DNA of 64,000 nucleotides. Source: Solwaraspora sp. WMMD406. Its GTDB lineage: Bacteria; Actinomycetota; Actinomycetes; Mycobacteriales; Micromonosporaceae. The DNA lies in the NCBI RefSeq assembly GCF_029626025.1, contig NZ_JARUBF010000001.1, positions 3,906,001 through 3,970,000 on the forward strand, in the 5' to 3' direction. Made by a program: the position numbers and the translations under genes. Of the stretch, positions 33,988 through 54,880 are shown in pieces (position 1 is the stretch's first letter; each line of letters starts with the position of its first letter). Below the pieces are notes generated by a model. It was not told where the DNA came from. It saw only the letters and a list, made by a program, of their open reading frames with translations, and did no database searches.

Positions 33988-34317
33988 ATGCACAGTACGT
34001 TGATTGTGGCCCGGATGGAATCGTCCGCAAAAGATGATGTGGCAAACCTCTTTCGGGGATTCGATTCGACTGACATGCCGCACCGTATGGGTACTCGGCG
34101 TCGTCAGCTCTTCTACTATCGTGGCCTGTACTTCCACCTGCAAGACTTCGACGAAGACAATGGCAGCGAATTGATCCAGGGAGCGCGTACGGACGCGCGG
34201 TTCGTGCAGATCAGCGAGGATCTCAAGCCCTTCATCCAGGCGTATGATCCGGCGACGTGGCGCTCGCCTGCCGACGCTATGGCCACCCGCTTCTATTCCT
34301 GGAAGGCGGACCGGTGA
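33988..34317 (+). CDS. TcmI-family polyketide cyclase
   Basis: 109 residues, start ATG after GGAGGAG. Ferredoxin-like cyclase of the TcmI/JadI/UrdF family ([43 protein letters not shown], ending ATRFYSWKA). In angucycline pathways this small cyclase helps close the later rings after the bifunctional aromatase/cyclase has formed the first. It overlaps KS-alpha by GTGA, and its position just before KS-alpha equals urdF/lanF placement. Confidence 0.93.
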
Positions 34318-35585
34318 ACGAGCGCCGGGTCGTCATTACAGGTCTTGAGGTGCTAGCTCCCGGTGGGCTCGGCGCCAATGCGTTTTGGTCGCTGATCAGC
34401 GAGGGCTCCACGGCAACGCGGAAGATCACCTTTTTCGACCCGACGCCGTTCCGGTCGAGGGTCGCTGCGGAAATCGACTTCGATCCGGAGGTGCACGGCC
34501 TCACTCCGCATGAGGTCCGGCGAATGGATCGTGCCGCGCAGTTCGCCGTCGTGACGGCCAGAGGCGCGCTGGCCGACAGCGGTCTTGATCTGTCCGCGTG
34601 CGACCCCCACCGCATCGGAGTCACCGTCGGCACGGCGGTTGGTGCGACGACAGGTCTGGATCAAGAGTACCGAGTGGTCAGTGACGGCGGGCGACTCGAC
34701 CTCGTCGACTACCGCTACGCCGTCCGTCACCTCTACAACTACCTGGTACCCAGCTCGTTCGCGGCTGAGGTCGCTTGGGCCGCGGGTGCCGAGGGTCCGA
34801 ACACCGTCGTCTCGACTGGCTGCACATCCGGCATCGACGCGATCGGTTATGCCGCCGAGATTCTGCGTGAAGGCTCGGCCGACGTGATGATCGCCGGGGC
34901 GACCGACGCGCCGATCTCGCCGATCACCATGGCGTGCTTCGACGCGATCAAGGCGACGACGCCGAGGTACGACGAGCCGGAGCGGGCGTCGCGCCCGTTC
35001 GACGGTACCCGCAACGGGTTCGTCCTGGGCGAGGGTTCCGCGTTCTTCGTGCTCGAGGAGTTGGGAAGCGCCCGCCGCCGGGGTGCTCAGATCTATGCCG
35101 AGATCGCCGGGTACGCGACGCGGTCCAACGCGTATCACATGACAGGGCTGCGTCCCGACGGAACGGAGATGGCGGAGGCCATCCGCGTCGCGCTGGACGA
35201 GGCCCGGCTGGATCCGACCGCCATCGATTACATCAACGCGCACGGCTCGGGCACCAAGCAGAACGACCGGCACGAGACCGCAGCCTTCAAGAGGAGCCTG
35301 GGCGAGCACGCGTACGTAACGCCAGTCAGCTCCATCAAGTCGATGGTCGGGCACTCGCTCGGCGCGATCGGTTCGATCGAGATCGCCGCGTCGGTGCTGG
35401 CGATGACCCACCATGTCGTGCCGCCGACCGCGAACCTGCACACCGCCGACCCGGAGTGCGATCTCGACTATGTGCCGATCACCGCACGTGAGCACCGTAC
35501 GGACGCCGTCCTGACGGTCGGCAGCGGGTTCGGCGGGTTCCAAAGCGCCATGGTGCTGGCTCGTCCCGAGAGGAGCACGCTGTGA
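34314..35585 (+). CDS. Type II PKS ketosynthase alpha (KS-alpha)
   Basis: 423 residues. Condenses malonyl-ACP units with the KS-beta partner. Catalytic Cys is in [14 protein letters not shown] (about 170), His in [12 protein letters not shown] (about 308) and [10 protein letters not shown] (about 345). The GTG start at 34314 overlaps the cyclase gene and the stop overlaps KS-beta by GTGA, so cyclase, KS-alpha and KS-beta are translationally coupled. No malonyl-CoA:ACP transferase is encoded nearby, so the fatty-acid-synthase enzyme is presumably shared, as in other type II systems. Confidence 0.97.
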
Positions 35586-36790
35586 GTGTTGTGGTGACGG
35601 GGTTGGGCGTCGTCGCGCCCAATGGACTCGGTGCGCAGAACTACTGGTCCGCGGCGCGGGTCGGCAAGAGCGGCATCGGCCGACTGTCGCGCTTCGACGC
35701 TGCCTCGTACCCGTCACGGCTAGCCGGTGAGATCCACGGCTTCGATCCTGCGGCGCACCTGCCGAATCGACTGCTGCCGCAGACCGATCGGATGACGCAG
35801 CTCGCCCTGGTCGCCGCCGACTGGGCTCTGGCCGACGCCGGGGTGCGTCCGGTGGATCTGCCCGCATTCGAGATGGGCGTGGTCACGGCCAGCGCTTCCG
35901 GCGGTTTCGAGTTCGGCCAGTACGAGCTGCAGCGGTTGTGGAGCAAAGGTAGCGAGTACGTCAGCGCGTACCAGTCGTTCGCGTGGTTCTACGCGGTCAA
36001 CAGTGGGCAGATCTCGATCCGGCACGGGATGCGCGGACCGAGCGGGGTCGTCGTCAGCGACCGCGCCGGCGGGCTGGACGCGGTGGCGCAGGCCCGCCGT
36101 CAGATCCGGAAAGGCACTCACCTGGTGGTCACGGGTGGCGTCGACGCCTCCTTGTGTCCATGGGGATGGGTGGCGCAGATGGCCGGCGGCCGGATGAGCA
36201 CGCGCGACGACCCCGCGACCGCCTATCTGCCCTTCGACCGCCGTGCGGCGGGTCACGTGCCGGGGGAGGGCGGGGCGATCCTCATCCTGGAGCGCGCCGA
36301 GTCGGCCCGGTCCAGGGGCGCCCGAGTCTACGGAGAGATAGCAGGTTACGGAGCTACCTTTGACGCCCGCCCCGGCACCGGGCGTCCACCCGTCCTGGAC
36401 AGGGCGATCGAGCTGGCGATGGCCGAGGCCAGGGTCTCCCCGGCTGACGTGGACGTCGTCTTCGCAGACGGCGCGGCGGTGCCGGAGTTGGACCGGATCG
36501 AGGCCGACGCGGTGACCCGCATCTTCGGCCCGGGCGGAGTGCCGGTGACCGTACCGAAGACGATGACCGGCTGCCTGTACTCGGGCGCCGCCCCGCTCGA
36601 TCTGGCGACTGTCCTGCTGGCGATGGATGAAGGACTGATTCCACCAACCATCCACATCGAGCCATCCGACGGGTACGACTTGGACCTCGTCGTCGATCAA
36701 CCGCGAACCGCGCGGCTGCGCACGGCGCTGGTGTTGGCCTGTGGCTACGGCGGCTTCAACTCCGCGATGGTCGTCCGATCCGAACAATGA
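35582..36790 (+). CDS. Type II PKS ketosynthase beta / chain length factor, with Arg at the pseudo-active site
   Basis: 402 residues, the non-condensing partner that sets chain length. It aligns along its length with KS-alpha ([58 protein letters not shown]). Where KS-alpha has VSTGCTSG, most KS-beta proteins have a Gln in V-x-E-Q-A-G-G; here the codons read [11 protein letters not shown], placing Arg at the Cys/Gln position. The second His-Gly motif is degenerate ([11 protein letters not shown]), as usual. Otherwise intact and in frame. Confidence 0.95.
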
Positions 36791-36806
36791 GCCGGAAAGA
36801 GGCACC

Positions 36807-37064
36807 ATGTCCGTCAACGAATTTACCCTCGACGATCTTAGGCGCGTCCTACGCTCGGCTGCCGGTGCCGACGAGGCTGTCGATCTCGACGGCGACATCC
36901 TCGACGTCGACTTCGACGCGCTCAACTACGACTCGCTCGCCCGACTCGAAACGTGCAGCCGCATCGAGCGCGAGTACGGCGTCTCACTCGACGACGCGCT
37001 CGACATCGCGAACACCCCGCGTTCGCTGATCAAGGTCGTCAACGACCGGCTCGCCTCGACATGA
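36807..37064 (+). CDS. Acyl carrier protein
   Basis: 85 residues, acidic four-helix ACP. The phosphopantetheine Ser is in the DSLARLE motif (LNYDSLA, about residue 47-53). Start ATG 16 bases after KS-beta, with GGAAAGAGG upstream. It carries the growing polyketide; the phosphopantetheinyl transferase is not in the window. Stop overlaps the next gene (ATGA). Confidence 0.96.
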   Translation: MSVNEFTLDDLRRVLRSAAGADEAVDLDGDILDVDFDALNYDSLARLETCSRIEREYGVSLDDALDIANTPRSLIKVVNDRLAST

Positions 37065-37948
37065 ACGACGGTGTGACGACCACCGTGCCGCCGACGGCCG
37101 TGTCCGGCGGAGTGCGGCCCATCCGGCTGGATGTGGCGGGCGTACCACTGTCGGGTCTGCTAGGCGAGCCGGAGTGGACGTCCCCCCGCGGGGTCGTCGT
37201 GGCACTGCACGGAGCGGGTATGACCGCCGGGTACTTTCACGGCCGGGCTCACCCGGACCAGTCCTTGGCCGAGCTCGGCCGCAGCCTCGGTTTCACCGTT
37301 CTGGCGCTTGACCGGCCCGGATACGGTGCGTCCTCCGCGGTGTTGCCACACGGGCAGAGCGTCGCTGAGCAGGCCGCTCTGCTGCGCGGCGTGCTGGCCT
37401 GGTACGCCGACCGGCACGCGGTCGGTGCGGGCTTCTTCCTACTGGCGCACTCCTACGGAGGCAAGGTAGCGCTGACCGCGGCGGCCCAGGAGTCTGGCGA
37501 TGGCCTCATCGGGCTCGACATCTCAGGCTGCGGCCACGAGTACCTGCCTGACCATCCGCTGGCCGGTCCGGGGCACTGGAGACGGCACTGGGGATCGTTG
37601 CGTTGCTATCCGCCGAACACGTTCCGACTCAGTGAACTGACGGTGGCACCGATACCTGAGCGGGAACTGGCGGAGGTGTCGCAGTGGCCCGAGGTCTTCG
37701 CCACGGTCGCGGCCCGAGTGCGGGTGCCGGTGCGGTTTACGTTCGCGCAGTACGAAGGGTGGTGGCGGCACGACGAACCGGCCGTCGCCGATCTCGTGTC
37801 CCGGTTCACCGGGACACCCCGCGTCGTGGTCGACCGGCAGCCCGACAGCGGTCACAACATCAGCTTGGGCTGGGCGGCACGCGCCTACCACCTTCGCGCG
37901 ATCGGATTCCTCGAGGAGTGCCTCGCGGCAGCCCGGTGCAGGCTCTGA
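37061..37948 (+). CDS. Alpha/beta hydrolase inserted between ACP and ketoreductase
   Basis: 295 residues. Alpha/beta hydrolase fold: oxyanion-hole region VVALHGAGMTAGYFHG, nucleophile elbow LLAHSYGGK (Ser, about 133), and His in PDSGHNIS near the C-terminus. Translationally coupled to the ACP (ATGA). Possible roles are release of the polyketide from the ACP, proofreading of stalled acyl-ACP, or a lactone-forming/opening step. A hydrolase is not part of the usual angucycline minimal set, so its position inside the core operon is notable. Confidence 0.85.
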   Translation: MNDGVTTTVPPTAVSGGVRPIRLDVAGVPLSGLLGEPEWTSPRGVVVALHGAGMTAGYFHGRAHPDQSLAELGRSLGFTVLALDRPGYGASSAVLPHGQSVAEQAALLRGVLAWYADRHAVGAGFFLLAHSYGGKVALTAAAQESGDGLIGLDISGCGHEYLPDHPLAGPGHWRRHWGSLRCYPPNTFRLSELTVAPIPERELAEVSQWPEVFATVAARVRVPVRFTFAQYEGWWRHDEPAVADLVSRFTGTPRVVVDRQPDSGHNISLGWAARAYHLRAIGFLEECLAAARCRL

Positions 37949-37980
37949 TCACATCGGCATACCAGGGGAGATGACACGGC

Positions 37981-38763
37981 ATGGCACAGGAGAAGAGGAC
38001 GGCGCTGGTCACCGGCGCCACCAGCGGCATCGGGCTCGCCGTCGCCGAGCTGCTGGGTGCACTGAACCACAAGGTGTACGTCGGCGCACGGAAGGCCGAC
38101 AACGTGGCGGCAACCGTGAAAGCACTGCAGGACAAGGGCTTGGATGCCGCCGGCACCACCGTGGACGTGCGCTCCGGCGATGACGTACGGACGTTCGTGC
38201 AGGCGGCCGTCGACTGCTTCGGCACGGTGGACGTCCTGGTCAACAACGCGGGTCGAAGTGGTGGTGGGGTCACCGCGGACATCACCGACGAGTTGTGGCA
38301 AGACGTCATCGAAACGAACCTCAACAGCGTCTTCCGGATGACCCGCGAGGTCCTGAACGCGGGCGGGATGCGGAAGAAGAACCGGGGACGCATCATCAAC
38401 ATCGCCTCTACGGCGGGGAAGCAGGGTGTGGTGCTCGGCGCGCCCTACTCGGCTTCCAAGCACGGTGTGGTCGGGTTCACCAAGGCACTCGGCAACGAAT
38501 TGGCGCCGACTGGCATCACGGTGAACGCGGTGTGTCCCGGCTACGTCGAGACGCCGATGGCCCAGCGCGTGCGGCAGGGATACGCGGACGCCTGGCAGAC
38601 GACTGAGGAGGCCATCCTCGAGAAGTTCCAGGCCAAGATCCCGCTGGGCCGGTACTCCACCCCGCAGGAGGTCGCCGGTCTCGTCGGCTACCTGGCCTCG
38701 GACACCGCCGCGTCCATCACCTCCCAGGCGCTCAACGTCTGCGGCGGCCTTGGTAACTTCTGA
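37981..38763 (+). CDS. Polyketide C9 ketoreductase (ActIII-like)
   Basis: 260 residues, SDR fold. Cofactor motif TGATSGIG, NNAGRSGGG, catalytic Ser in NIASTAGKQGVV and Tyr-Lys in YSASKHG; C-terminus NVCGGLGNF resembles the ActIII end. The PxGLxAxGxxxDVRS region (GLDAAGTTVDVRSGDD) is typical of the group that reduces the C9 carbonyl of the nascent poly-beta-ketone with NADPH before first-ring cyclisation. Confidence 0.96.
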   Translation: MAQEKRTALVTGATSGIGLAVAELLGALNHKVYVGARKADNVAATVKALQDKGLDAAGTTVDVRSGDDVRTFVQAAVDCFGTVDVLVNNAGRSGGGVTADITDELWQDVIETNLNSVFRMTREVLNAGGMRKKNRGRIINIASTAGKQGVVLGAPYSASKHGVVGFTKALGNELAPTGITVNAVCPGYVETPMAQRVRQGYADAWQTTEEAILEKFQAKIPLGRYSTPQEVAGLVGYLASDTAASITSQALNVCGGLGNF

Positions 38764-38784
38764 CACCTTCAAGGAGCTGACGAC

Positions 38785-39720
38785 ATGACCATTCGCGAGG
38801 TCGAGCACGACATCTCCGTCGACGCGCCAGCCGAGACTGTGTACCGGCTCATCGCCGAGGTAGAGAACTGGCCGCGGATCTTCCCGCCCACCATCTACGT
38901 CGACCATCTGGAGCGCGGCGAGAAGGAGGAGCGCATCCGGATTTGGGCAACGGCGAACGGACAGCCCAAGAGTTGGACGTCGCGACGCCTGCTCGACCCG
39001 GGGAACCTCCAGATCGACTTCCGTCAGGAGGTGTCCGCACCACCGGTTGCGGCGATGGGCGGTTCCTGGCTTATCGAACCGATCTCCGCTACCACGTCGC
39101 GAGTCCGATTGCGGCACGACTACCGTGCGATCGATGACGACCCCGCAGGTCTGAAATGGATCGATGATGCCGTGGATCGGAACTCGCGGTCGGAACTGTC
39201 CGCCCTCAAGTCGAACATCGAGCGCGCGCACGTAGCCGCCGAGGTCACCTTCTCGTTCGAGGACACCGTCCTTGTCGACGGAGCGGCCAAAGACGTCTAT
39301 GCCTTTATCAACGACGCACACCTGTGGAAGGAGCGGCTGCCGCACGTCGCTCGGGTCAGCCTCGTCGAGGAGACGCCCGGCCTGCAGGAGCTGGAGATGG
39401 ACACTCGAGCCAAGGACGGCTCGACGCACACCACGAAGTCGTACCGGGTGACGTATCCGCACCGGCTGATCGCCTACAAGCAGGTGACCCTGCCAGCACT
39501 GATGAATCTGCACACCGGCTACTGGACGTTCACCGAGACGGACAGCGGCGTGACGGCGTCGTCGCAACACACCGTGGTGCTCAACACCGACAACATCGCT
39601 CGAATTCTCGGTGAGGGTGCCACGGTGGCGGACGCGCGCGAGTACGTGCGCACCGCCCTGAGCACCAACAGCCAGGCCACGCTTCACCTCGCCAAGGCGT
39701 ACGCCGAGGGCAGACGCTGA
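38785..39720 (+). CDS. Bifunctional aromatase/cyclase (UrdL/ActVII-like, two SRPBCC domains)
   Basis: 311 residues, two START/SRPBCC-like domains (about 1-150: EVEHDISVDAPAETVYRLIAEVENWPRIFPP; about 155-311: FSFEDTVLVDGAAKDVYAFIND). Didomain aromatase/cyclases of this size act on C9-reduced chains to form and aromatise the first ring. Start ATG with AAGGAG. It ends the core PKS operon; a 274-bp gap follows. Confidence 0.95.
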   Translation: MTIREVEHDISVDAPAETVYRLIAEVENWPRIFPPTIYVDHLERGEKEERIRIWATANGQPKSWTSRRLLDPGNLQIDFRQEVSAPPVAAMGGSWLIEPISATTSRVRLRHDYRAIDDDPAGLKWIDDAVDRNSRSELSALKSNIERAHVAAEVTFSFEDTVLVDGAAKDVYAFINDAHLWKERLPHVARVSLVEETPGLQELEMDTRAKDGSTHTTKSYRVTYPHRLIAYKQVTLPALMNLHTGYWTFTETDSGVTASSQHTVVLNTDNIARILGEGATVADAREYVRTALSTNSQATLHLAKAYAEGRR

Positions 39721-39994: not shown

Positions 39995-41473
39995 ATGGAC
40001 GCTTCAGTGGTTGTTGTGGGTGCCGGCCCGGCTGGTCTGATGCTGGCCGGCGAGCTGCGGCTCGCGGGAGTCGATGTCGTCGTACTCGAGCGGCTCGAAC
40101 GACGCACCGGGGAGTCGCGTGGGATCGGGTTCACCGTCGGCACGATGGAGGTTTTGGACCAGCGCGGGCTGCTGCGCCGTATCGGTGCCTACGAGACAAG
40201 CAACATGGGTCACTTCGGTGGCATCCCGCTCGACATGGGAGTACTCGGTGCGGCCCACGAAGCGGCCCGCACCGTGCCGCAGTCGGTCACCGAGGTGGCG
40301 CTGGAGGGCTGGGCGACGGAGTTGGGTGCCCGAATTCGTCGCGGTCACGAGTTTCTCGGCCTCGCCGACGCCGACGACCGCGTGACAGTCACCGTCCGTG
40401 GCCCCGATGGGCAGTACGAGCTGACTACCCGGTACCTGGTCGGCTGCGACGGTGGCCGCAGCCGGGTCCGCAAGGCGGCTGGCTTCGACTTTCCTGGCAC
40501 GGAGACCACCACTGAGATGTTGCTGGCCGACATCCGTGGGGTGGACCTTCCACCGCGCATGACCGGACAACAGGTCGGTGGTGGCTTCGTCATGGTCGCG
40601 AAGCTGGCCGGGGGAGTCCATCGAGTGATCGTCGGCGAGCGCGGCATCCCGCCCCGGCGGCGTACCGGTCCGCCGGCTTTCACGGAGGTCGCCGACCTCT
40701 GGAAGCGGTTGACCGACATCGACATCTCGCACGCGGAACCGGTCTGGGTCAGCGCGTTTGGCGATGCCACTCGGCAGGTCACCCAGTACCGTCGGGGACG
40801 GGTACTGCTGGCCGGCGACTCCGCCCACGTGCATCTGCCGGCCGGCGGCCAGGGCATGAACACGAGTCTGCAGGACTCGTACAACCTGGGGTGGAAGCTC
40901 GCGGCGGTGGTCAACGGCCACGCGCCGACGTCATTGCTGGACACCTACCACACCGAGCGCTACGAGGTGGGCCGGCGGCTGCTGACCAACACCCGGGCGC
41001 AGAGCCTGCTTGTGCTCGGCGGTGCCGAAGCTCAACCGCTGCGTGACCTGCTCGCCGAGCTTGTTCAGTTCCCGGACGTCGCACGGCATCTCGCCGCCAA
41101 GGTCAGTGGCTTGGACATCCGCTACGACGTGGGCATCGGCGCCAACGCGGTCCTCGGCCAGCGGATGCCGCACCTGCCGATAACAGTCGGCAACCGTGCT
41201 ACCAGCAGCACCGAGTTGCTGCGGTCGGGGCGCGGGGTGCTGATCGACCTCGGCGACAACGCCGTCCTGCGTCGTCGGGCGCAGGCCTGGCGCGACCGGA
41301 TAGACATCGTCACGGCTGTAGGCCAGGCACCCACGCCCGGCTCGCTGGTCGGCACCAGCGCCGTGCTGCTGCGCCCGGACGGATACGTGGCGTGGGCCGC
41401 ACCGGGCAGCCACCAGAACGTGACCACCGCCCTGACCCGCTGGTTCGGCCCGCCCGCGCAAGGTCGGCGATGA
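39995..41473 (+). CDS. FAD-dependent angucycline oxygenase (PgaE/UrdE/JadH-like)
   Basis: 492 residues, aromatic-hydroxylase fold. FAD motifs: GAGPAGLMLAGELRLAG at the N-terminus, VGCDGGRSRVRKAAG (DG motif), GRVLLAGDSAHVHLPAGGQGMN (GD motif), with a thioredoxin-like C-terminal domain (about 390-492). In angucyclines this enzyme hydroxylates C12 (and in some cases C12b) of the tetracyclic prejadomycin/UWM6-type intermediate, using NADPH and O2. Start ATG at 39995 after GGGAG. Stop overlaps the following fusion gene by ATGA, pairing the two enzymes as in pga, urd and jad clusters. Confidence 0.93.
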   Translation: MDASVVVVGAGPAGLMLAGELRLAGVDVVVLERLERRTGESRGIGFTVGTMEVLDQRGLLRRIGAYETSNMGHFGGIPLDMGVLGAAHEAARTVPQSVTEVALEGWATELGARIRRGHEFLGLADADDRVTVTVRGPDGQYELTTRYLVGCDGGRSRVRKAAGFDFPGTETTTEMLLADIRGVDLPPRMTGQQVGGGFVMVAKLAGGVHRVIVGERGIPPRRRTGPPAFTEVADLWKRLTDIDISHAEPVWVSAFGDATRQVTQYRRGRVLLAGDSAHVHLPAGGQGMNTSLQDSYNLGWKLAAVVNGHAPTSLLDTYHTERYEVGRRLLTNTRAQSLLVLGGAEAQPLRDLLAELVQFPDVARHLAAKVSGLDIRYDVGIGANAVLGQRMPHLPITVGNRATSSTELLRSGRGVLIDLGDNAVLRRRAQAWRDRIDIVTAVGQAPTPGSLVGTSAVLLRPDGYVAWAAPGSHQNVTTALTRWFGPPAQGRR

Positions 41474-43435: not shown

Positions 43436-44200
43436 ATGTCCACCGACCACGCTCAGGTCGCGGTCGTCACCGGGGCCAACAAGGGCATCGGCCGGGAGAT
43501 CACCCGGCAACTCGCCCAGCGCGGCCTCGTCGTCTATCTTGGCGCCCGCGACGAGCAACGCGGTCGCGCCGCCGAGCGCGATCTGCGCGCCGAGGGCCAC
43601 GACGTGCGGTTCCTGCAGCTGGACGTCACCGACGCCGAATCGGTCTCCCGGGCGGCCAAGCGCCTGGACAGCGAGGTAGGCACGGTGCGCGTGCTGGTCA
43701 ACAACGCCGGAATCGGCGGACCGATGCATCCGCCCAGCCAGACTCCGGCCGACCAGGTGCGCACGGTCTACGAGACGAACGTATTCGGCGTCATCACGGT
43801 GACCAACGCGCTACTCCCGCTGCTGCGCCGGTCTGGGTCGGCCCGCATCGTCAACGTCAGCAGCGTGGTCGGCTCACTGACAGCTGCCGCTGAGAACGTC
43901 GATCCATCGGGCGTGCACCCGCCTGGCGCGTTTCCCACCATGCTTTCCTACGCGACATCCAAGTCAGCGCTCAACGCGGTCACACTGACGTACGCCAACG
44001 AGCTCCGCGGCACCGGCATCCTGGTCAACGCCGCGTCCCCCGGTTTCGTGGCCACGGACATCAATTTCCACCACGGGGTACTCACCGTCGAGGAGGGTGC
44101 CCGCGTCCCGGTGCTGCTGGCTACGCTGCCCGACAACGGGCCTACCGGCACGTTCCTCGGCGAGAACGGCACCGCCGAGGGCCAGGTGTTGCCGTGGTGA
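43436..44200 (+). CDS. Short-chain dehydrogenase/reductase (carbonyl-reductase-like)
   Basis: 254 residues; ATG after GGGAGGGA. TGANKGIGREI cofactor motif, NNAGIGGPM, VSSVVGS and YATSKSALNAVT catalytic residues. Closer in style to plant-type carbonyl reductases than to ActIII. Probably reduces a ketone during tailoring; substrate unknown. Overlaps the MFS transporter start. Confidence 0.9.
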   Translation: MSTDHAQVAVVTGANKGIGREITRQLAQRGLVVYLGARDEQRGRAAERDLRAEGHDVRFLQLDVTDAESVSRAAKRLDSEVGTVRVLVNNAGIGGPMHPPSQTPADQVRTVYETNVFGVITVTNALLPLLRRSGSARIVNVSSVVGSLTAAAENVDPSGVHPPGAFPTMLSYATSKSALNAVTLTYANELRGTGILVNAASPGFVATDINFHHGVLTVEEGARVPVLLATLPDNGPTGTFLGENGTAEGQVLPW

Positions 44201-46446: not shown

Positions 46447-47118
46447 ATGCCCATCGCCAGCAATGTCCGCCCGACCATCGACCGTGACGACGTCGCCGTC
46501 GCGCTGGTGGAGGAGGTTATCACCGACGAGCAGACCCACCAGGAAGCCATCACGGCCATCATCAAGCACTGGGAGACCGCGCCGTGGCCGGCAGGCCTGG
46601 TAGCCCAGTCACTGTTCGTCGGCACCGACGGTGGATCCCTGCTGACGTACGCGCAGTGGCGCGACCATGACGCGCTTGCGGTCGCCATGCGAGGACCGGG
46701 CGGTGCCCAGCGGTTCGACTGGCGCGGCGTGGGTGTGGCGTCCGGCGAGCCGCGCGCCTACGAGTTGTACCGCCGGGTGCAGCCCGCCGTGCTGCCCGAT
46801 CCGGTTCCCCCGGTCGGTTGCTATCCAGCGGCGTACTTCGTCATGGACAGCGCCGACGCGGCTCGCAAGTGGATCGACGGCTTGCTCAACAGCGAGGAGG
46901 AGACCGAGGGCAAGGACCGAGCCTACCCCGGCGCGCTGGCCGCGAACTTCCACGTGGCCTCCGATGGCAGCGGCATCTTCCTGTTGTCCGAGTGGGCCTC
47001 GGAAGCCGAGGCGGTCGCGCACATCGATGAGGTGATCATCCCGCTGCTGGAGTACATGGGTCAGGCACAGGCCGGCCCGGGGCGCCGGTATGCGTTCCTC
47101 GCGTCGGCCGCCGCCTGA
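46447..47118 (+). CDS. Two-domain antibiotic biosynthesis monooxygenase (ABM) protein A
   Basis: 223 residues with two tandem ferredoxin-like ABM repeats. First half: VEEVITDEQTHQEAITAII, LLTYAQWRDHDAL; second half: AAYFVMDSADAARKWIDGLL, FLLSEWASEAEAVAHI. Such proteins oxidise anthrone- or quinone-type polyketides without an obvious cofactor, or with supplied flavin. Ring-B-opening oxygenases of jadomycin, gilvocarcin and kinamycin pathways (JadG, GilOII, AlpJ) belong to this general class, so this gene is one of two candidates for that step. Family is clear, exact reaction is not. Confidence 0.8.
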   Translation: MPIASNVRPTIDRDDVAVALVEEVITDEQTHQEAITAIIKHWETAPWPAGLVAQSLFVGTDGGSLLTYAQWRDHDALAVAMRGPGGAQRFDWRGVGVASGEPRAYELYRRVQPAVLPDPVPPVGCYPAAYFVMDSADAARKWIDGLLNSEEETEGKDRAYPGALAANFHVASDGSGIFLLSEWASEAEAVAHIDEVIIPLLEYMGQAQAGPGRRYAFLASAAA

Positions 47119-47163: not shown

Positions 47164-48102
47164 ATGAAGGGCAGAACATTGTCTGCACAGGACGTCGTCT
47201 TCGGATTCGGCGCGCACAGCAGCATCAGCGACGGTCCGGAGCTGCTGCGCATGACCGAGCAGGCCGACCGTGACGGGCTCGACCTGTTCTCGCTGTCGGA
47301 CCACCCCTACATCGGCGAGCGGCTGGATGCCTACGCCACTGTGGGGTACATCCTGGGGCGTACGCAGCGGCTGGCGGGCTTCGCCAACGTGACGAACCTG
47401 CCCACCCGGCCGCCGGCCATGCTGGCCCGCGCGGTGACGGCACTGTCGTCGCTGTCGGGCGGCCGTGTCGTGCTCGGCATGGGCGCGGGCGGCCTATGGG
47501 ACCGCATCGCCGACATGGGGGTGCCCCGCCTGACGCCCGGGGCGGCAGTGGATGCATTCGAAGAGGCGATCGTACTGGTGAAAAAGCTTTGCGGCGGTGG
47601 CGCTCCGGTCACCTTCCAGGGCCGGTACTACCAGGTCAACAACTTGGCGCCGGCACCCGTACCCGCGCCGCCGATATGGACCGGTTCGGTCGGTGCCAAG
47701 TCGCTGGCCGCCACGGGCCGGGTTGCCGACGGCTGGATCCCCGGACATGCGGCGGACTGGCTGAGCCCGCGCTATCGCGAGTCGCGGCCCGTCATCGACG
47801 CGGCAGCCGCAGCGGCGGGCCGCGACACGCGGGCCGTCCGCACGGTGTTCAACTTCCCCGGCCACATCACCGCCCGGCCACTGGCTGCCACCCGCGAGCC
47901 GGGCACCGGCCGCTGGGTCGGCGGCTCGGTCGAGCAGTGGATCGAGGAGCTGACCGGCGCGGTCGTGGAGCACGGGGCCGGCGGTTTCATGCTCTTCTCA
48001 CCTGCTGGCGGCACGACGGACCTCGTCTCCCTGGGCCGCTGGGCCAACGAGATCGTTCCGGCCGTCCGCGAGGCGGTCACCAAGGAAACGCACCGCATCT
48101 GA
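47164..48102 (+). CDS. LLM-class flavin/F420-dependent oxidoreductase
   Basis: 312 residues, luciferase-like TIM barrel (FGFGAHSSISDGPELLRMTEQADRDG, TVGYILGRTQRLAGFANVTNLPTRPPAMLARAV, GRVVLGMGAGG, IWTGSVGAKSLAATGRVADGWIP). The pattern is that of actinobacterial F420-dependent reductases. Start may be the ATG at 47164 or a TTG at 47179 that has AAGGG upstream. In aromatic clusters such enzymes reduce quinones or ene-ones, or hydroxylate with FMNH2; no choice can be made. Confidence 0.85.
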   Translation: MKGRTLSAQDVVFGFGAHSSISDGPELLRMTEQADRDGLDLFSLSDHPYIGERLDAYATVGYILGRTQRLAGFANVTNLPTRPPAMLARAVTALSSLSGGRVVLGMGAGGLWDRIADMGVPRLTPGAAVDAFEEAIVLVKKLCGGGAPVTFQGRYYQVNNLAPAPVPAPPIWTGSVGAKSLAATGRVADGWIPGHAADWLSPRYRESRPVIDAAAAAAGRDTRAVRTVFNFPGHITARPLAATREPGTGRWVGGSVEQWIEELTGAVVEHGAGGFMLFSPAGGTTDLVSLGRWANEIVPAVREAVTKETHRI

Positions 48103-48886: not shown

Positions 48887-48897
48887 GGAGGACAACG

Positions 48898-49575
48898 ATG
48901 TCCGAGACCATCCTGTCGGCGGTGGGCTTCGCGCACGCTCGGCCGGAGAAGGCCGCCGAGCTGGGTGCCCTCCTCGTCTCGTTCGCCGAGCGTTCGCGTG
49001 GCGAGCAGGGCTGCCTGCAGAGCAGGATCCACCAGGACCTGACCGACCCCAACCAGTTCGTCTTCTACGAGATGTGGGCTTCCCAGGAGGACCTCACTCG
49101 TCATCTCGACCAGCCGTACATGACGGAGTTCCTAGCCAGCCGCATGGATTACCTGGTGAAGGATCTCGTCGTGCGACAGCTCGGTCTGGTCAGCTCCGGG
49201 CCCGTCGTCGCGGAGCCCACCGACCCGGTGGAGATGAACCAGCGCTACCTGGACGCGTACAACGCCCGCGACATCGAGGCCGTCATGGCCGTGTACGCGC
49301 CCGGCGCCGCTGCCGTCTGGCAACCAGGCAAGGCGGTCAGCGGCCCGGAGCACCGGGCTGCAGTCGCCGATTTCCTGAAGCTCGACCCGAAACTCTCGGC
49401 CGAGGTGCGCGAGAGCTACGTCGCCGGAGACACAGCGGCACTGGTCGTCGACTGGAGCATCGAGGTCCCGGGAGCGCCGGAGATGACGGGCACCGGCCGA
49501 GGCCTCGACGTTCTGCGCCGCGACGCCCGGGGCGAGTGGCGTTACGTGATCACCAACCCGTTCGGGAGTCGGTAA
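48898..49575 (+). CDS. ABM - SnoaL-like fusion protein
   Basis: 225 residues. Residues about 1-100 are an ABM ferredoxin-like domain (SAVGFAHARPEKAAELGALLVSFAERSRGEQGCLQSRI, FVFYEMWASQEDLTRHLDQPYM). Residues about 105-225 are a SnoaL/NTF2-like (nuclear transport factor 2 fold) domain (MNQRYLDAYNARDIEAVMAVYAPGAAAVWQPG, GRGLDVLRRDARGEWRYVITNPFG). NTF2-fold proteins in polyketide pathways act as cyclases or hydroxylases. Joining both catalytic folds in one chain suggests a coupled oxidation and cyclisation/rearrangement. Stop is directly followed by the next ATG. Confidence 0.8.
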   Translation: MSETILSAVGFAHARPEKAAELGALLVSFAERSRGEQGCLQSRIHQDLTDPNQFVFYEMWASQEDLTRHLDQPYMTEFLASRMDYLVKDLVVRQLGLVSSGPVVAEPTDPVEMNQRYLDAYNARDIEAVMAVYAPGAAAVWQPGKAVSGPEHRAAVADFLKLDPKLSAEVRESYVAGDTAALVVDWSIEVPGAPEMTGTGRGLDVLRRDARGEWRYVITNPFGSR

Positions 49576-50364
49576 ATGAAGATCAAGGACAGCGTCGCGG
49601 TCGTCACCGGTGGTGCCAGCGGCATGGGAAAGGCCTTGGCCGAGAAGCTGCGGGACGCCGGGGCACGGGGGATCGTCGTGGCCGATCTCGACGTCGAGGG
49701 CGCCGCGCGAGTCGCTTCCTCGCTCGGCGCCATCGGCCTGGCTGTCCACGCGGACGTCGCCGAAGAGTCGTCGGTCCGTGAGCTCGTGGCACGCGCGCGG
49801 GAGCGGTTCGGATCAATTGATCTGTTCGTGTCGAACGCGGGCCTCACCGTTACCGGGGGCTTCGAGGCACCTGATGAGGATTGGCGGCGGGCCATCGACG
49901 TGAACCTGATGGCACACGTGTACGCCGCGCGGGCGGTCGTGCCGGCGATGCTGGAGGCGGGCCACGGCCACCTCCTACAGAACATCGCCGCCGCCGGCGT
50001 ACTGACCGCGTTCGGGGCCGGGCCCTACACGGTGGCCAAGCATGGCGCCGTGGCGTTCGCCGAGTACCTCGCCGTGCAGTACGGCGGCCGTGGCTTGGGC
50101 GTCTCATGTCTGCTCCCACAAGCCGTGAACACCCCGATGTTGGCGGCCAGCGTTGCCGATCACGAGGAGCTGGCGGTCCTGCGGTCGTTCTCCAACGTGC
50201 TGGAGCCCGAGGAGGTCGCCGAGATCGCTCTCGCCGGCGTCGAGGCCAACCAACTGCACATCTACCCGCATCCGGAGGCTGCCGACTCGTTCCGTCTCCG
50301 AGCTCAGGATCCCGACAAATGGGTGACCGAGATGCGGGCCATGCTGTCGCGCCGAGGCGACTGA
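49576..50364 (+). CDS. Short-chain dehydrogenase/reductase
   Basis: 262 residues; the ATG directly follows the previous stop. TGGASGMGKA, VSNAGLTVTGG, NIAAAGVLTAFG (Ser replaced by Ala in the usual catalytic-Ser stretch, so activity may differ), YTVAKHGAVAF. The long C-terminal part (about 190-262: HIYPHPEAADSFRLRAQDPDKW) is seen in many secondary-metabolite SDRs. Substrate unknown. Confidence 0.88.
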   Translation: MKIKDSVAVVTGGASGMGKALAEKLRDAGARGIVVADLDVEGAARVASSLGAIGLAVHADVAEESSVRELVARARERFGSIDLFVSNAGLTVTGGFEAPDEDWRRAIDVNLMAHVYAARAVVPAMLEAGHGHLLQNIAAAGVLTAFGAGPYTVAKHGAVAFAEYLAVQYGGRGLGVSCLLPQAVNTPMLAASVADHEELAVLRSFSNVLEPEEVAEIALAGVEANQLHIYPHPEAADSFRLRAQDPDKWVTEMRAMLSRRGD

Positions 50365-50413
50365 CCCGCCCTCACCCAGGCCATGATCGCTCGATGTCCA
50401 GGGAAGGAACTCC

Positions 50414-50992
50414 ATGTCCGAGGAACTGCGGCTGACCGTGATAATCGGCTCGGCGCGCGAGGGTCGGTCAGGACCGGCCGTCGCGCGTTGGTTCGTCGAC
50501 GAGGCCAGAGCCTTCGGCTTGTTCGATGTCGACGTGCTCGACCTAGCCGATGTCGAGCTTCCCCTGTCAATGACTCAGCACCCGGCCCCGCAGGACGCTC
50601 AGGTGCTGGCCGATGTAGCGGGGCGGCTGACATCGGCCGACGCGTTCGTTGTGATCACACCGGAGTACAACCACAGCTTCACCGCTCCGCTGAAGAATCT
50701 GATCGACTGGCACCGTACGCAGTGGCAGGCCAAGCCGGTGGCCTTTGTGTCCTACGGTGGGCTGTCCGGTGGCCTCCGGGCGGTGGAACAGCTGCGCCAG
50801 GTGTTCGCGGAGCTGCACGCTGCCACGATCCGTGACACCGTTAGTTTCCACGCGGTATGGGAGCAGTTCGGCCCGGACGGCAACTTACGCACCTCCGACG
50901 CCGCTACTCCCGCCAAGGTGATGCTGGAGAAGCTCATCTGGTGGGCCGCCGCGCTCAAGGACGCTCGTGCCTTGCGTCCCTACTCGGCCTGA
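50414..50992 (+). CDS. NADPH-dependent FMN reductase (flavodoxin-like)
   Basis: 192 residues; GSAREGRSGPAVARWF phosphate-binding loop, ITPEYNHSFTAPLKNLIDW signature, SYGGLSGGLRAVEQL. Supplies reduced FMN to partner oxygenases. Its partners are probably the flanking ABM protein (51016) and acyl-CoA-dehydrogenase-like monooxygenase (51645). Jadomycin and gilvocarcin ring opening also need a flavin reductase (JadY, GilH), but those are of a different fold, so this would be a functional analogue. Confidence 0.9.
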   Translation: MSEELRLTVIIGSAREGRSGPAVARWFVDEARAFGLFDVDVLDLADVELPLSMTQHPAPQDAQVLADVAGRLTSADAFVVITPEYNHSFTAPLKNLIDWHRTQWQAKPVAFVSYGGLSGGLRAVEQLRQVFAELHAATIRDTVSFHAVWEQFGPDGNLRTSDAATPAKVMLEKLIWWAAALKDARALRPYSA

Positions 50993-51015
50993 TGCTCTGG
51001 ACCAGGAGGATCGAC

Positions 51016-51648
51016 ATGAGTGCCATCAGGATAGACGACGGCTACCTGACGCTGTTCAACATGTTCTACACCAACAGCGGCGAGGACCAGGACAAATTGT
51101 TCGACCAGTGGCGCGGCCTGCCGCCCGCGAACGTGCAAAAGGGCCTCATCGCCGGCAACTTCCACCGTGGCCTCGACGGTCGATCCGTGGTCAACTACGC
51201 GCAGTGGGAAAGTCTCGCTGACTACGAGGCATTCCTGGCCGAGGCGGGCACCCGCAGCCGGCTCGGCCAAGCGCTCGCCTTCTCCCACATGGAGAGCATT
51301 CCGACCGAGGTGGTCCACACCTGGGACCCCGCTCCGGAACTGACGATCGACAAGCCGTGGTTCACCGTCGTGATCATCGTCAGGGCGGCACCGGAACACC
51401 AGGCGACGGTGCTCGCCGAAATGACCAACGATCCGCCGGAACTGGGGGACACACCGGGGTACGTCTCGCACGCCGTGCATCGCGGGCTCGCTGGCGAGCA
51501 CGTCATCAAATATGCCCAGTGGGCCGACGAGGAGAGCTTCCGTTCGTTCTTGAGTCGTCCTCAGCAGGAGCAGCACTCCTCGCCTGCCGTCGAAACCACC
51601 GTGGAGCTGCACTTCACCCGACTGGAGTACATCCGGGAGCGCTCATGA
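51016..51648 (+). CDS. Two-domain antibiotic biosynthesis monooxygenase (ABM) protein B
   Basis: 210 residues, two ABM repeats each carrying the same YAQW motif (VVNYAQWESLADYEAFL at about 66; VIKYAQWADEESFRSFL at about 172). Start ATG after AGGAGG. Located between an FMN reductase and an acyl-CoA-dehydrogenase-like monooxygenase and overlapping the latter (ATGA). It is the best positional candidate for a JadG/GilOII/AlpJ-like ring-cleaving oxygenase; the sequence alone gives only the family. Confidence 0.82.
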   Translation: MSAIRIDDGYLTLFNMFYTNSGEDQDKLFDQWRGLPPANVQKGLIAGNFHRGLDGRSVVNYAQWESLADYEAFLAEAGTRSRLGQALAFSHMESIPTEVVHTWDPAPELTIDKPWFTVVIIVRAAPEHQATVLAEMTNDPPELGDTPGYVSHAVHRGLAGEHVIKYAQWADEESFRSFLSRPQQEQHSSPAVETTVELHFTRLEYIRERS

Positions 51649-52763
51649 CCGTGGTGGGGAACTGGCCGGACCCCGACGCGCTCACAGCTGCGGCGGAGCG
51701 GGCGGGCGCCGAGGCGGCGAGCGCGGACGCCACCGGCTGCATCGGCGCGGACGTGGTCGAGGCCCTGACGGCAGCGGGCTTCCCGACGTGCTTCGTGCCA
51801 CGTCGTTGGGGTGGCGCCGAGCTGTCCCTCGATGCGGTGACGCGAGCGGTGGCGCTGGTAGGCGAGCAGAACGCATCGGCTGCCTGGATCGCATCGCTAC
51901 TGGCCTATAACGGACGATTCGGTGCCTACCTGCCAATCGACGGCCAAAAGGAGATCTGGGCCGAAGGTCCTGAGACCCGGCTGGTCAGCTCCATGGTGGC
52001 GGCGGGCGTCACGGCGGAGCAGGTGCACGGCGGCTGGTCGTTGCGCGGAAGGTGGCTCTACGTCAGCGGGGTCGAGTTCGCCGACTGGGCTCTGGTCAGT
52101 TCAGCACCGCCGCGCGAGGGAGACCGATCGATCCTCGTGTTCGCCGTGCACCGCGACGCGTTCACCCACGAGCGGTCGTGGTCGTCCATAGGCATGCATG
52201 GCACCGGCAGCCATACCCTTGTCGTGGACGAGGTTTTCGTGCCGGAGTACCGTACGTTCGTCTGGGACGACATGCGTCAGGGCGTCGTCCCCCTGCCCGC
52301 CACCCACGCCCAGGCCGCTCCGCTGTTCTCGGTGAACGGGCTGACGTTCGCCGCGCCGATTCTCGGCGCGGCGCGCTACGCACTGCGCCTGGCCCATCAG
52401 CACCTCTCTGCGGCGGTGAGCGGGGCACGCGCGGCGTCGCGGCAGTCCAGCCGCGTCGCCTTCACCCGGGCAGCCGGCGAAATCGATGCGGCGGAGCTGC
52501 TGCTCGCACGGGTCGCGGCGACCGCCGACGCCGGACCTGCACGTGACGGCTTGGCCGAACGTAGCCACCGAGACGCCACACTGGCGGTGGAACTGCTCGT
52601 CGAGGCGGTGGACCGGCTGTTCCGGGTCACGGGAACCCGTGGACAGGCAGCCTCGCACGGGATGCAGCGCGTCTGGCGTGACGTTCACGCGGCGGCGTCG
52701 CATGCCGCGCTCCAGTTCGAGCCAGCGGCCCTCGCCTACACGCGGGCGCTCCTGAACGAGTGA
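51645..52763 (+). CDS. Acyl-CoA-dehydrogenase-like flavin-dependent monooxygenase (group D)
   Basis: 372 residues with the acyl-CoA dehydrogenase fold: VEALTAAGFPTCFVPRRWGGAELSLDAVTRAVALVGEQNASAAWI in the N-terminal helical domain, SGVEFADWALVSSAPP in the beta domain, and WSSIGMHGTGSHTLVVDEVFVPE. This is the HsaA/ActVA-ORF5/KijD3 style of two-component hydroxylase that uses free FMNH2, not a fatty-acyl dehydrogenase. It ends the tailoring operon; the FMN reductase two genes upstream would be its flavin source. Confidence 0.85.
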   Translation: MTVVGNWPDPDALTAAAERAGAEAASADATGCIGADVVEALTAAGFPTCFVPRRWGGAELSLDAVTRAVALVGEQNASAAWIASLLAYNGRFGAYLPIDGQKEIWAEGPETRLVSSMVAAGVTAEQVHGGWSLRGRWLYVSGVEFADWALVSSAPPREGDRSILVFAVHRDAFTHERSWSSIGMHGTGSHTLVVDEVFVPEYRTFVWDDMRQGVVPLPATHAQAAPLFSVNGLTFAAPILGAARYALRLAHQHLSAAVSGARAASRQSSRVAFTRAAGEIDAAELLLARVAATADAGPARDGLAERSHRDATLAVELLVEAVDRLFRVTGTRGQAASHGMQRVWRDVHAAASHAALQFEPAALAYTRALLNE

Positions 52764-52977
52764 CACATGGTCCGCGAAGCCCTTGGTGGGATAGGGACGC
52801 GGCCGCTCCAGCACGATCGCCGGCCCGTCGGTGTGCGCGTTCGTGGCCCGGTCGAGTCGTGGAAGTCGCTGTCCGAGATTCGGCTACGCACCTTGGTGAT
52901 CACGATGATCATCGCTGCGACCACTACTCACGGTCATAGTGACCTTGGTCGGCCATCTACGAACGGAAGGCGTGCGG

Positions 52978-53466
52978 ATGTACGCTGGTGAGGTGGTCAA
53001 ACAGGAAGGTCAGATCGGGCTCGTGACCGCCTTGGTACGAACCACGTTCCTCGTTAACGCCGTCTATGCCGATTCGGCCCGGGAGTATGGGCTGACGCCG
53101 CAGCAGGGGCAGCTACTCTGCGTGCTCATGGTGCAGCCTTATGGCATGGGTGAGTTGAGCGCGGTGCTGGGGCTGGCCAAGTCGAGCCTGACTGGCCTGG
53201 TGGACCGCACCGAGCGCAACGGACTCGTCCGGCGCAAACAGGACCCACAGGACACGCGCGGCGTACGGGTCGCGCTCACGGCCGAGGGCAGGCGCCTCGC
53301 GGAGGAGTTCTACACCGAGACCTGCCGGCGCATCGACAAGCTACCGCTCGGATTGAGCACAAAGGAACGCGACGAGCTGAGTGCCTTGTTGAGTCGCGTC
53401 GTCACCGACAACGAGGTTCCGGTCGTCTTCGTGGAAACGGAGGAGGGCGCGATCCGCAAAGCCTAG
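52978..53466 (+). CDS. MarR-family transcriptional regulator of the polyketide cluster
   Basis: 162 residues from the ATG at 52978 with GGAAGG upstream. Winged helix: MGELSAVLGLAKSSLTGLVDRTERNGLV and wing QDPQDTRGVRVALTAEGRRL. Probably senses the product or an intermediate and controls export/oxidation genes. The double palindrome at 53724-53762 ahead of the next gene is a candidate target. Confidence 0.88.
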   Translation: MYAGEVVKQEGQIGLVTALVRTTFLVNAVYADSAREYGLTPQQGQLLCVLMVQPYGMGELSAVLGLAKSSLTGLVDRTERNGLVRRKQDPQDTRGVRVALTAEGRRLAEEFYTETCRRIDKLPLGLSTKERDELSALLSRVVTDNEVPVVFVETEEGAIRKA

Positions 53467-53723
53467 GGCCGTGTGTCGTCGGCGCCCGGTGGTGTGGTAC
53501 GGCAGACGATGATCATGCCGCCCACCACGGAGAAGGCACCGAACGGGCGGGTCGGTCTGCAGATCGGCCTTCCGACCTGACCGCCGCGACCTGTGCCTCC
53601 ATCGACTGCACGACCAACAGTGCAACCTCGCCGTGGACGAGTTCGCTGATCAGACGCCTGTCGCGTCCAACCGCACGCACCTCAGACACGGGACCCAAGG
53701 TCCTGATGCGACCTTAGGCTTGC
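53467..53723. other. Intergenic region with no recognisable gene
   Basis: About 320 bp separate the MarR gene from the next gene. A minus-strand 61-codon frame (53513-53698; RRLISELVHGEVALLVVQ) is open but I recognise no family; it may be a remnant. The last part of the region holds a tandem operator (separate entry). Confidence 0.4.
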
Positions 53724-53762
53724 AGTTCGTGATACGAACTAATATAGTTCGTGCTACGAACT
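53724..53762 (+). promoter_or_regulatory. Two identical-arm 17-bp palindromes (tandem operator)
   Basis: AGTTCGT-gat-ACGAACT (53724-53740) and AGTTCGT-gct-ACGAACT (53746-53762) have perfect 7-bp arms and centres 22 bp apart, about two helical turns. The stretch is AT-rich with aatatag between the sites, so it probably overlaps the promoter of the FAD oxidoreductase 23 bp downstream. It fits binding of two repressor dimers on one DNA face. The adjacent MarR protein is the nearest candidate. Confidence 0.75.
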
Positions 53763-53785
53763 CGACATCTGAGGAGCGTGAAGTC

Positions 53786-54880
53786 ATGAGTCGTGCCGTC
53801 GTGGTAATCGGCGGAGGTTATGGGGGCTCGGCGGTCGCCAAGGCGCTGGACGCCGACGCGGATGTCGTTCTCGTCGACCCCCGGGACGCGTTCGTCAACG
53901 CTGCGGGGTCGCTGCGGGCGCTGACCCAGCCCGAATGGGCCCCCAACATGTTCTTCTCCTTCGACACGCTGCTCAAGCGAGGCCGAGTAATCCGCGACCG
54001 AGCGGCCTCGGTCGACCCGCAGGGCGTTACGCTCGCTTCGGGTGAGCGGATCGATGCGGACTACATCGTGTTGGCCACGGGTTCGAGCTACGCCTATCCG
54101 GCTAAGCCCAACGACAGCTCGACGCTTACCGTCGAGGCGCTCAACGATCTGCGCGAGTCCCACAAGGAACTGCTCAACGCCGATCGAGTGCTGATTCTCG
54201 GTGCCGGTCCGGTTGGCCTGGAGCTGGGCGGCGAAATCAAGGAGGTTTGGCCAAACAAGCAGGTGACGATCGTCGATCCGGCCGAACAACTTCTGCCGGG
54301 TTTCCTGCCTGAGGTCCGCGAGGACCTGCACCGCCAGCTCGACGGGCTCGGCATCGAGGTTCGGCTGGGCACCGGCCTTACCGCGCAGCCGTCGACTCCG
54401 CCCGGCCGCGCCGGCACCTGCACCGTCACCACGACCGCCGGCGACGAGATCGTCGCCGACATCTGGTTCCGCGCCTTCGGCGTGCGGGTGAACAGCGAAT
54501 GCCTCGCTGACGGCAAACTCGTAGGCCGTGATGGACAGGGCGCGGTTCCCGTGACCGAGCACCTCAACGTCGAGGGTTACGCGCACGTCTACGCGCTCGG
54601 TGACGTAACGAACCTGGCGGAGGCCAAGATGGCCGGCTACGCGATGCAGCACGCCGAGGTCGTGGCGAAGAACATCATCGCCCAGCTTAACGGCGAGCAG
54701 CCGTCGGCGACGTACACGCCCGCGCCGGATCCGATGATTTTGCTCCCGCTCGGCCCTCGTGGCGGCGTCGGACAGCTGCCGATGCCCGAGACCACCCCGG
54801 TTGGCTCGGACATCGTCTCGCAGTACAAGGGCGCAGACCTCTTCACCGGCAGGTTCGCGGAACAGTTCCGGGCCGATTGA
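53786..54880 (+). CDS. FAD/NAD(P)-dependent oxidoreductase (FSP1/AIF-2, NDH-2-like)
   Basis: 364 residues, ATG after GAGGAG. VVVIGGGYGGSAVAKAL (FAD), VLILGAGPVGLELGGEI (NAD(P)H), VYALGDVTNLAEAKMAGYA (FAD ribityl contact). The family reduces quinones with NAD(P)H. Placed under a dedicated tandem operator at the end of the cluster, it may reduce the quinone product as a self-protection or final redox step. Confidence 0.87.
   Translation: MSRAVVVIGGGYGGSAVAKALDADADVVLVDPRDAFVNAAGSLRALTQPEWAPNMFFSFDTLLKRGRVIRDRAASVDPQGVTLASGERIDADYIVLATGSSYAYPAKPNDSSTLTVEALNDLRESHKELLNADRVLILGAGPVGLELGGEIKEVWPNKQVTIVDPAEQLLPGFLPEVREDLHRQLDGLGIEVRLGTGLTAQPSTPPGRAGTCTVTTTAGDEIVADIWFRAFGVRVNSECLADGKLVGRDGQGAVPVTEHLNVEGYAHVYALGDVTNLAEAKMAGYAMQHAEVVAKNIIAQLNGEQPSATYTPAPDPMILLPLGPRGGVGQLPMPETTPVGSDIVSQYKGADLFTGRFAEQFRAD

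Follow-up and report, generated by a model that had tools for sequence, protein, structure and literature searches.

Clusters of the hrb, rub and lug type (hatomarubigin, rubiginone and lugdunomycin) and clusters with a ring-opening enzyme of the AlpJ/JadG/GilOII family are the closest described systems to the locus treated here, a type II polyketide synthase cluster at 33988-54880 of a 64,000-nucleotide window (the whole stretch of DNA that was analyzed, C1:3906001-3970000 of the 7.16-Mb genome of Solwaraspora sp. WMMD406). Hatomarubigins are uncleaved angucyclinones. AlpJ-family enzymes, which carry two antibiotic biosynthesis monooxygenase (ABM) domains in tandem, open ring B, acting on dehydrorabelomycin via a Baeyer-Villiger lactone (PMC11181247). 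The lug paper assigns a pair of ABM proteins to C-ring cleavage, the second of which prefers 8-methoxy substrates; it also reports that an 8-methoxy group stops ring B from being cleaved and that nearly all C-ring-cleaved angucyclinones carry one (PMC10728087). We see an even chance that the Solwaraspora locus represents an undescribed lineage of angucyclinone clusters with hrb, rub and lug as its relatives, and that its product is an 8-O-methyl angucyclinone that is oxidatively altered and possibly has a cleaved ring.

Comparison with described clusters

With four representative hrb/rub/lug-type loci (L080, L081, L113 and L082) the window shares, in similar order, a PgaE gene, a PgaM gene fused to a short-chain dehydrogenase/reductase (SDR), a further SDR (SDRa), a major facilitator superfamily (MFS) exporter, an O-methyltransferase (OMT) and an HrbF/LugOV-like ABM protein (ABM1); a flavin mononucleotide (FMN) reductase is shared with 2 of the 4. 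The PgaM fusion, SDRa, the OMT and the HrbF/LugOV-like ABM protein, by which we recognize this group, are thus all present, and loci with the hrb/rub gene order described in PMC8487521 have close counterparts of OMT, SDRa and ABM1. Six genes of the window, however, have no counterpart within about 10 kb of PgaM in those loci: a second tandem ABM oxygenase (ABM2), an ABM-SnoaL fusion, a group D flavin monooxygenase, a luciferase-like monooxygenase (LLM)-class protein, SDRb and a second SDR of the LanV type. To the AlpJ/JadG/GilOII family the connection is ABM2, a tandem ABM protein with the Asn/Trp pair in domain 1 that forms the sister group of that family, but lies outside its clade and lacks its conserved motif. 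By ABM content, the lineage would be intermediate between clusters of the hrb/rub/lug type and those of the AlpJ type.

The 22 genes are all co-directional with full-length frames, and the reading frames and Pfam matches bear out the coordinates and gene order of the initial annotation. They are listed here, with percentages as protein identity and Frankia standing for the two strains introduced below.

33988..34317, +, TcmI-type polyketide cyclase (PF04673, E = 5.8e-41)
34314..35585, +, ketosynthase (KS)-alpha (PF00109/PF02801; TGCTSG active site)
35582..36790, +, KS-beta, or chain length factor (PF00109/PF02801)
36807..37064, +, acyl carrier protein (ACP; YDSL motif; homologs in 82 of 84 other loci)
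37061..37948, +, alpha/beta-hydrolase between ACP and ketoreductase (AHSYGG motif; homologs in 16 of 84 other angucycline loci)
37981..38763, +, C9-type ketoreductase (KR; PF00106, E = 1.8e-62; at most 87% to Streptomyces loci)
38785..39720, +, didomain aromatase/cyclase (ARO/CYC; PF10604 and PF03364, two stretches each)
39995..41473, +, PgaE-type flavin adenine dinucleotide (FAD) monooxygenase (best Protein Data Bank (PDB) match PgaE 2qa1, E = 5.3e-216, 721.6 bits)
41470..43407, +, PgaM-type FAD oxygenase fused to a C6-ketoreductase-type SDR (PF01494 and PF13561; 65-67% to the fused proteins of Micromonospora sp. HM5-17 and the two Frankia)
43436..44200, +, SDRa (78% and 76% to Frankia, 69% to HM5-17)
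44194..45366, +, MFS exporter (PF07690; 55% to Frankia)
45398..46420, +, OMT (PF00891; 75% to Frankia, 64% to HM5-17)
46447..47118, +, ABM1, tandem ABM protein of the HrbF/LugOV-like clade (by tree, AlphaFold model and Foldseek; 36-37% to Frankia)
47164..48102, +, LLM-class oxidoreductase (PF00296; 76% to Frankia, 61% to the Streptomyces sp. NBC_01768 plasmid locus)
48119..48886, +, second, stand-alone SDR, presumably of the LanV/UrdMred type (6ypz, E = 1.6e-95; 4osp 'oxygenase-reductase', E = 1.4e-92; 81% to Frankia)
48898..49575, +, ABM-SnoaL fusion protein (PF03992 and PF12680; 64-70% to Frankia; elsewhere only in the two Frankia loci among 84 others)
49576..50364, +, SDRb (75% to Frankia; next best 35%)
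50414..50992, +, NAD(P)H:FMN reductase, SsuE/MsuE-like (TIGR03566, E = 2.1e-9, below the model cut-off)
51016..51648, +, ABM2, tandem ABM oxygenase (sequence search: 9kdp, E = 2.1e-24; 5f9p, E = 1.2e-14; 59-61% to Frankia)
51645..52763, +, group D (acyl-CoA-dehydrogenase-fold) flavin monooxygenase (3afe, E = 3.7e-38; 3-HSA hydroxylase 2rfq, E = 4.7e-37; XiaF, E = 7.2e-28; 71% to Frankia)
52939..53466, +, MarR-family regulator (PF12802; 70-72% to Frankia)
53633..54880, +, FAD/NAD(P)H-dependent reductase of the pyridine-nucleotide-disulphide type (PF07992; 67% to Frankia, 49% to NBC_01768)

A TcmI-type cyclase, KS-alpha, KS-beta, ACP, C9 KR, didomain ARO/CYC and PgaE-type oxygenase in one cluster identify it as an angucycline cluster, and the core named in the initial annotation, which also counted the PgaM-type oxygenase, is complete. 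Its tailoring genes were likewise all found (three ABM-type proteins, FMN reductase, group D monooxygenase, LLM, one O-methyltransferase and four tailoring SDR domains); the list stands as given, except that it missed the alpha/beta-hydrolase and left the MFS exporter, the MarR regulator and the flavoprotein reductase unnamed. Pfam supports the cyclase, KS-alpha, KS-beta, KR, ARO/CYC, PgaE, PgaM, the SDRs, MFS, OMT, LLM, two of the three ABM proteins, MarR and the reductase; ABM1 has no Pfam match. The ACP, which has no NCBIfam match at E 0.001, and the alpha/beta-hydrolase were identified by reading the sequence.

ABM proteins

In a 45-row tree, ABM1 is nested in the HrbF/LugOV-like clade with support of 99/93 and 100/100, together with the second tandem ABM protein of L080, L081, L113 and HM5-17. 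Its AlphaFold model has a predicted local distance difference test (pLDDT) score of 84.7 and finds the oxygenases 9kdp, a structure of PenE, and 5f9p as the best Foldseek matches. ABM2 is the sister of the AlpJ/JadG-like clade with support of 100/97 in the same tree; in a 39-row tree that adds 17 further AlpJ-like proteins and one fragment, the support is 88/88, below the star threshold of the program, and ABM2 sits on a long branch outside a tight AlpJ-like clade of 23 rows. The names AlpJ-, LugOIII- and LugOV-like are group labels, as the trees are made up of sequences other than those known as hrb, lug, jad, gil or alp genes.

The groups also differ in an Asn/Trp pair, which we take to be the one of ActVA-ORF6-type oxygenases. 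The pair is in domain 1 in ABM2 (3/3) and the AlpJ-like proteins (6/6, two of them with a domain-2 Asn too) and in domain 2 only in the LugOIII-like proteins (19/19), while the Asn is missing from both domains in the LugOV-like group (9/9), counts that omit L133 and L143, which fell in no group of the ABM set. All 23 AlpJ-like rows of the larger set, two of which are identical to each other, have the Asn, and 22 have the Trp. In ABM1 both active-site motifs are without the Asn. Where the AlpJ-like clade shows a GTxNxIQWR-type motif, the ABM2 of the window reads SVVNYAQWES. No LugOIII-like ABM epoxidase with the Asn/Trp pair in domain 2 occurs in the window or the Frankia stretches, where the tandem ABM proteins are ABM1 and ABM2 only. 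Four other angucycline loci (L095, L123, L146 and L157) hold a further tandem-ABM group that has no domain-1 Asn and shows a [VI]NYPxW-type motif in domain 2.

Relatives and distribution

Searching named genomes with an alignment of four PgaM sequences yielded 154 relatives, and the 80 best of these were compared with the window proteins. Among these 80, the ABM-SnoaL fusion together with an ABM2 match above 30% is found only in Frankia sp. QA3 (L085/G530) and Frankia gtarii (L087/G479); in L156 the match to ABM2 stands at 30%. The clusters of these two strains are uncharacterized and are the nearest relatives. They share the core, ABM1, PgaE, PgaM, SDRa, OMT, the LanV-type SDR, ABM-SnoaL, SDRb, ABM2, the group D protein, the FAD reductase, MarR, LLM and MFS, so that 13 of the 14 window genes from PgaM onwards recur in both; the exception is the FMN reductase, which like the alpha/beta-hydrolase has no match in either 40-kb Frankia stretch. 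The MarR and FAD reductase genes are counted as cluster members because they are conserved with the Frankia clusters. The Frankia clusters differ in having ABM1 upstream of PgaE, the FAD reductase, MarR and LLM genes on the opposite strand, and two extra genes between PgaM and MFS, by eye an acyl-CoA carboxylase subunit and a second LLM protein. In its KR the window is nearer to the Streptomyces loci than to Frankia (73%), and from SDRa to the FAD reductase 10 of 13 genes are closest to Frankia, with MFS, ABM1 and the FMN reductase as exceptions; judged by these protein identities, the cluster looks like a mosaic.

ABM2 relatives near 60% identity are found in 2 of 296 genomes of the class besides that of the host, and in 2 of 13 genomes of the genus Frankia. 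None occurs in six other genomes of the host genus (E 1e-30), and there is no other near 60% among 300 genomes of the family, the next best being 34%. Full-length ABM-SnoaL is present in 3 of the 296 genomes, those of the host and both Frankia strains; in a further eight the match covers just one of the halves. In the literature searched no product is named for the Frankia QA3 or Frankia gtarii cluster, and the available portion of PMC4383371 has no mention of QA3. No match to any characterized cluster was found among the collections and literature compared, in line with the initial annotation, and a near-identical cluster with a known ordinary angucycline product was sought and not found, the closest tailoring sets being those of the two Frankia genomes. 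Because nearly the same set of finishing enzymes occurs in two Frankia strains, the cluster is probably an undescribed branch of a well-known compound class.

The plasmid cluster of Streptomyces sp. NBC_01768 (L160) has homologs of the LLM protein and the FAD reductase, an AlpJ-like ABM gene, a methyltransferase gene and an angucycline core, but no fused PgaM and, in the stretch compared, no LanV-type SDR above 150 bits, and its methyltransferase is only 24% identical to OMT. It is an angucycline cluster on a linear plasmid; ABM2 matches occur on 23 plasmid records, 22 of them from Streptomyces, all below 60% identity. We presume that L160 is comparable with jadF-jadG-jadH.

Tailoring enzymes and proposed route

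SDRa is probably HrbS/RubB2-like, judging by gene order, and OMT is apparently of the C8 type (HrbU/RubM4/LugN-like) by analogy with its relatives. The stand-alone SDR at 48119-48886 resembles the SDR domain of PgaM, and all four tailoring SDR domains (the PgaM C-terminus, 43436-44200, 48119-48886 and 49576-50364) have the YxxxK motif. By its matches the group D protein is a flavin monooxygenase of the HsaA/XiaF type. The LLM protein scores best against F420-dependent reductases, both among NCBIfam families and in the PDB, where F420-type enzymes give the top matches, so the oxidative excess claimed by the initial annotation is overstated; by these scores it looks F420-reductase-like, with no clear sign of an oxygenase. 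Its assignment as an RslO1-type FMN epoxidase, weighed against PMC8093152 and PMC7221717, was rejected, F420-dependent enzymes ranking first and RslO1 7bip and MsnO8 4us5 being absent from the 16 PDB rows listed. An auricin-type pyranonaphthoquinone as product (PMC10409956) was considered as well and set aside.

The initial annotation had noted a lack of sugar and nitrogen genes, and no glycosyltransferase, deoxysugar, amidotransferase or N-N gene was seen among the 40 window open reading frames put to Pfam, which are part of all and include at least 2 (36787-37029 and 50383-50835) that are out-of-frame and uninformative. The locus therefore does not class with the clusters of glycosylated angucyclines. 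Some 350 kb upstream, the genome also encodes a two-domain NDP-hexose 2,3-dehydratase; given this gene, the scope of the Pfam scan, and a search for glycosyltransferases confined to the window, glycosylation from distant genes may occur. The product is probably an unglycosylated, methylated, strongly oxidized aromatic polyketide.

From the gene content, homology, conservation in Frankia, motifs and ABM placement described above, we infer the chemical steps, the ring attacked and the product. By known pathway logic a decaketide would be built, reduced, cyclized and aromatized to a benz[a]anthracene core. The PgaE- and PgaM-type enzymes, to go by their families, would carry out C12/12b oxygenation, C2-C3 dehydration and C6 reduction, and OMT, like its relatives, would methylate O-8. 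The quinone or hydroquinone would next be the target of ABM1 and ABM2, which with the help of the FMN and FAD reductases would epoxidize it or carry out a Baeyer-Villiger-type oxygenation, so that one ring is rearranged or cleaved. The group D oxygenase would supply a hydroxyl, reductions by the LLM and SDR proteins would direct the rearrangement, and a possible role of the ABM-SnoaL fusion is to guide an oxygenation-cyclization.

Ring attacked and alternative readings

The suggestion in the initial annotation that ring B is possibly opened is borne out in that ABM2 is a sister of the AlpJ/JadG-like group; it is countered by the position of ABM2 outside the tight clade, by two C6-ketoreductase-type SDRs, a kind that reduces C6 in known pathways, and by the report that 8-methoxylation blocks B-ring cleavage (both PMC10728087). 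Such an SDR stands beside AlpJ-like genes in 0 of 4 loci and then in 2 of 17 (L195 and L197), at a cut-off of 150 bits for a LanV-type SDR that L184 misses with 137, among stretches of which 11 of 17 hold the KS core and L185 repeats the L161 protein, and with a bias towards having the SDR among the named loci, which were fetched by a PgaM query. L161 is presumably kinamycin-like. L155, which we take to be of the landomycin type and hence expected to have LanV, reaches no more than 160 bits, which makes the cut-off fragile; altogether this evidence is soft. From the 0 of 4 it had seemed that AlpJ-like genes and LanV-type SDRs strictly exclude each other, but L195 and L197 break that rule. L195 (G129:C31) is angucycline-like, with sugar-type genes by eye, an AlpJ-like ABM protein (Trp to Met), an FMN reductase, a group D oxygenase and a LanV-type SDR. 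Given the rarity of C6-ketoreductase-type SDRs in AlpJ-like loci and the 8-methoxylation report, attack on the C ring is modestly favored as somewhat more likely than attack on the B ring, with B-ring opening a serious rival.

In the version of that rival that we consider unlikely, ABM2 acts like AlpJ, JadG and GilOII on dehydrorabelomycin with FMNH2 from the FMN reductase encoded next to it, giving a product of the lactone, lactam or benzofluorene type. The PDB matches of ABM2, its sister position and its domain-1 Asn/Trp pair agree with this, as do the adjoining FMN reductase gene, the presence of LLM and FAD reductase homologs in the NBC_01768 cluster with its AlpJ-like gene, the combination of genes in L195, and the WS-5995 paper, which proposes a methyltransferase acting before a GilOII/JadG homolog. 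Yet ABM2 is without the clade motif, the two SDRs should remove the C6 oxygen function that the known reaction needs, 8-O-methylation is reported to block the cleavage, and the FMN reductase is not matched in Frankia. It is rather doubtful, too, that the product is an ordinary intact angucyclinone like the hatomarubigins and rubiginones that is further hydroxylated and O-methylated, with ABM proteins that are vestigial or do no more than oxidize a hydroquinone. The gene content does overlap that of hrb and rub, rubiginones are intact according to PMC8487521, and ABM1 lacks the Asn in both motifs; but ABM2, ABM-SnoaL, SDRb and the group D protein, which are not seen in the hrb-type stretches compared, are conserved at 59-75% in two Frankia species, which implies function.

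At one site of the KS-beta protein the window has an Arg; of the 84 angucycline KS-beta sequences parsed, 73 carry Gln there, six His and two Glu, the window alone having Arg (three loci are counted twice, L103 was read at the wrong place and L097 was not parsed), and its Frankia relatives have Gln. That Arg, the frameshifted FAD monooxygenase gene nearby at 55214-56788 and the lack of ABM2 in the six other host-genus genomes would fit a cluster that is silent or defective, or whose tailoring genes serve another pathway. This is very improbable, as the 22 genes are co-directional with full-length frames, the tailoring set accompanies an angucycline core in two Frankia strains, and the KS-beta site varies elsewhere.

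Several of the same observations weigh against an oxidatively altered 8-O-methyl angucyclinone of an undescribed lineage. Because Arg replaces the usual Gln, activity of the synthase is not certain. The lug route is incomplete because no LugOIII-like epoxidase was found. Clusters with an HrbF homolog can yield uncleaved angucyclinones, such as the rubiginones (PMC8487521), so ABM1 is no proof of cleavage. As for ABM2, the 45-row tree carries a long-branch warning, the sister grouping is weaker in the 39-row tree, and the protein shares only 27-32% identity with the four AlpJ-like proteins it was set against and, in the family search, no more than 34% with others outside Frankia.

A more specific form of the altered-ring reading, which we put forward tentatively, has the angucyclinone rearranged by neither the lug route (C ring, LugOIII with LugOV) nor the alp/jad/gil route (B ring, AlpJ). 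ABM2 would be a third functional class of tandem ABM protein, cooperating with a LugOV-like partner and with an ABM-SnoaL protein whose single polypeptide would link oxygenation with ring closure, both in Micromonosporaceae and in Frankia. The cluster holds a relative of each ABM type together, along with a fusion enzyme unseen in the other loci examined except the Frankia pair, and nearly the same set is conserved in a second bacterial order; taken together, this points to a likely new scaffold from rare actinomycetes.

Neighboring genes

An aldo-keto reductase at 31508-32524 was rejected as a cluster member because its identity to the Frankia enzyme (35-37%) is no higher than that to L151 (36%). 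An apparent FAD monooxygenase-MarR fusion at 55214-56788 on the minus strand is a frameshift artifact, in which the FAD monooxygenase gene runs into the MarR gene with its second half in another frame. Elsewhere in the genome a second adjacent ketosynthase pair lies at C1:1177085-1179066, the first of 445 aa, the same open-frame length as the window KS-alpha, and the second of 409 aa versus 432 aa. A ribonucleotide reductase large-subunit gene with an ATP cone (182-2902, minus strand) has a cobalamin riboswitch (2784-2994, minus strand) at its start.

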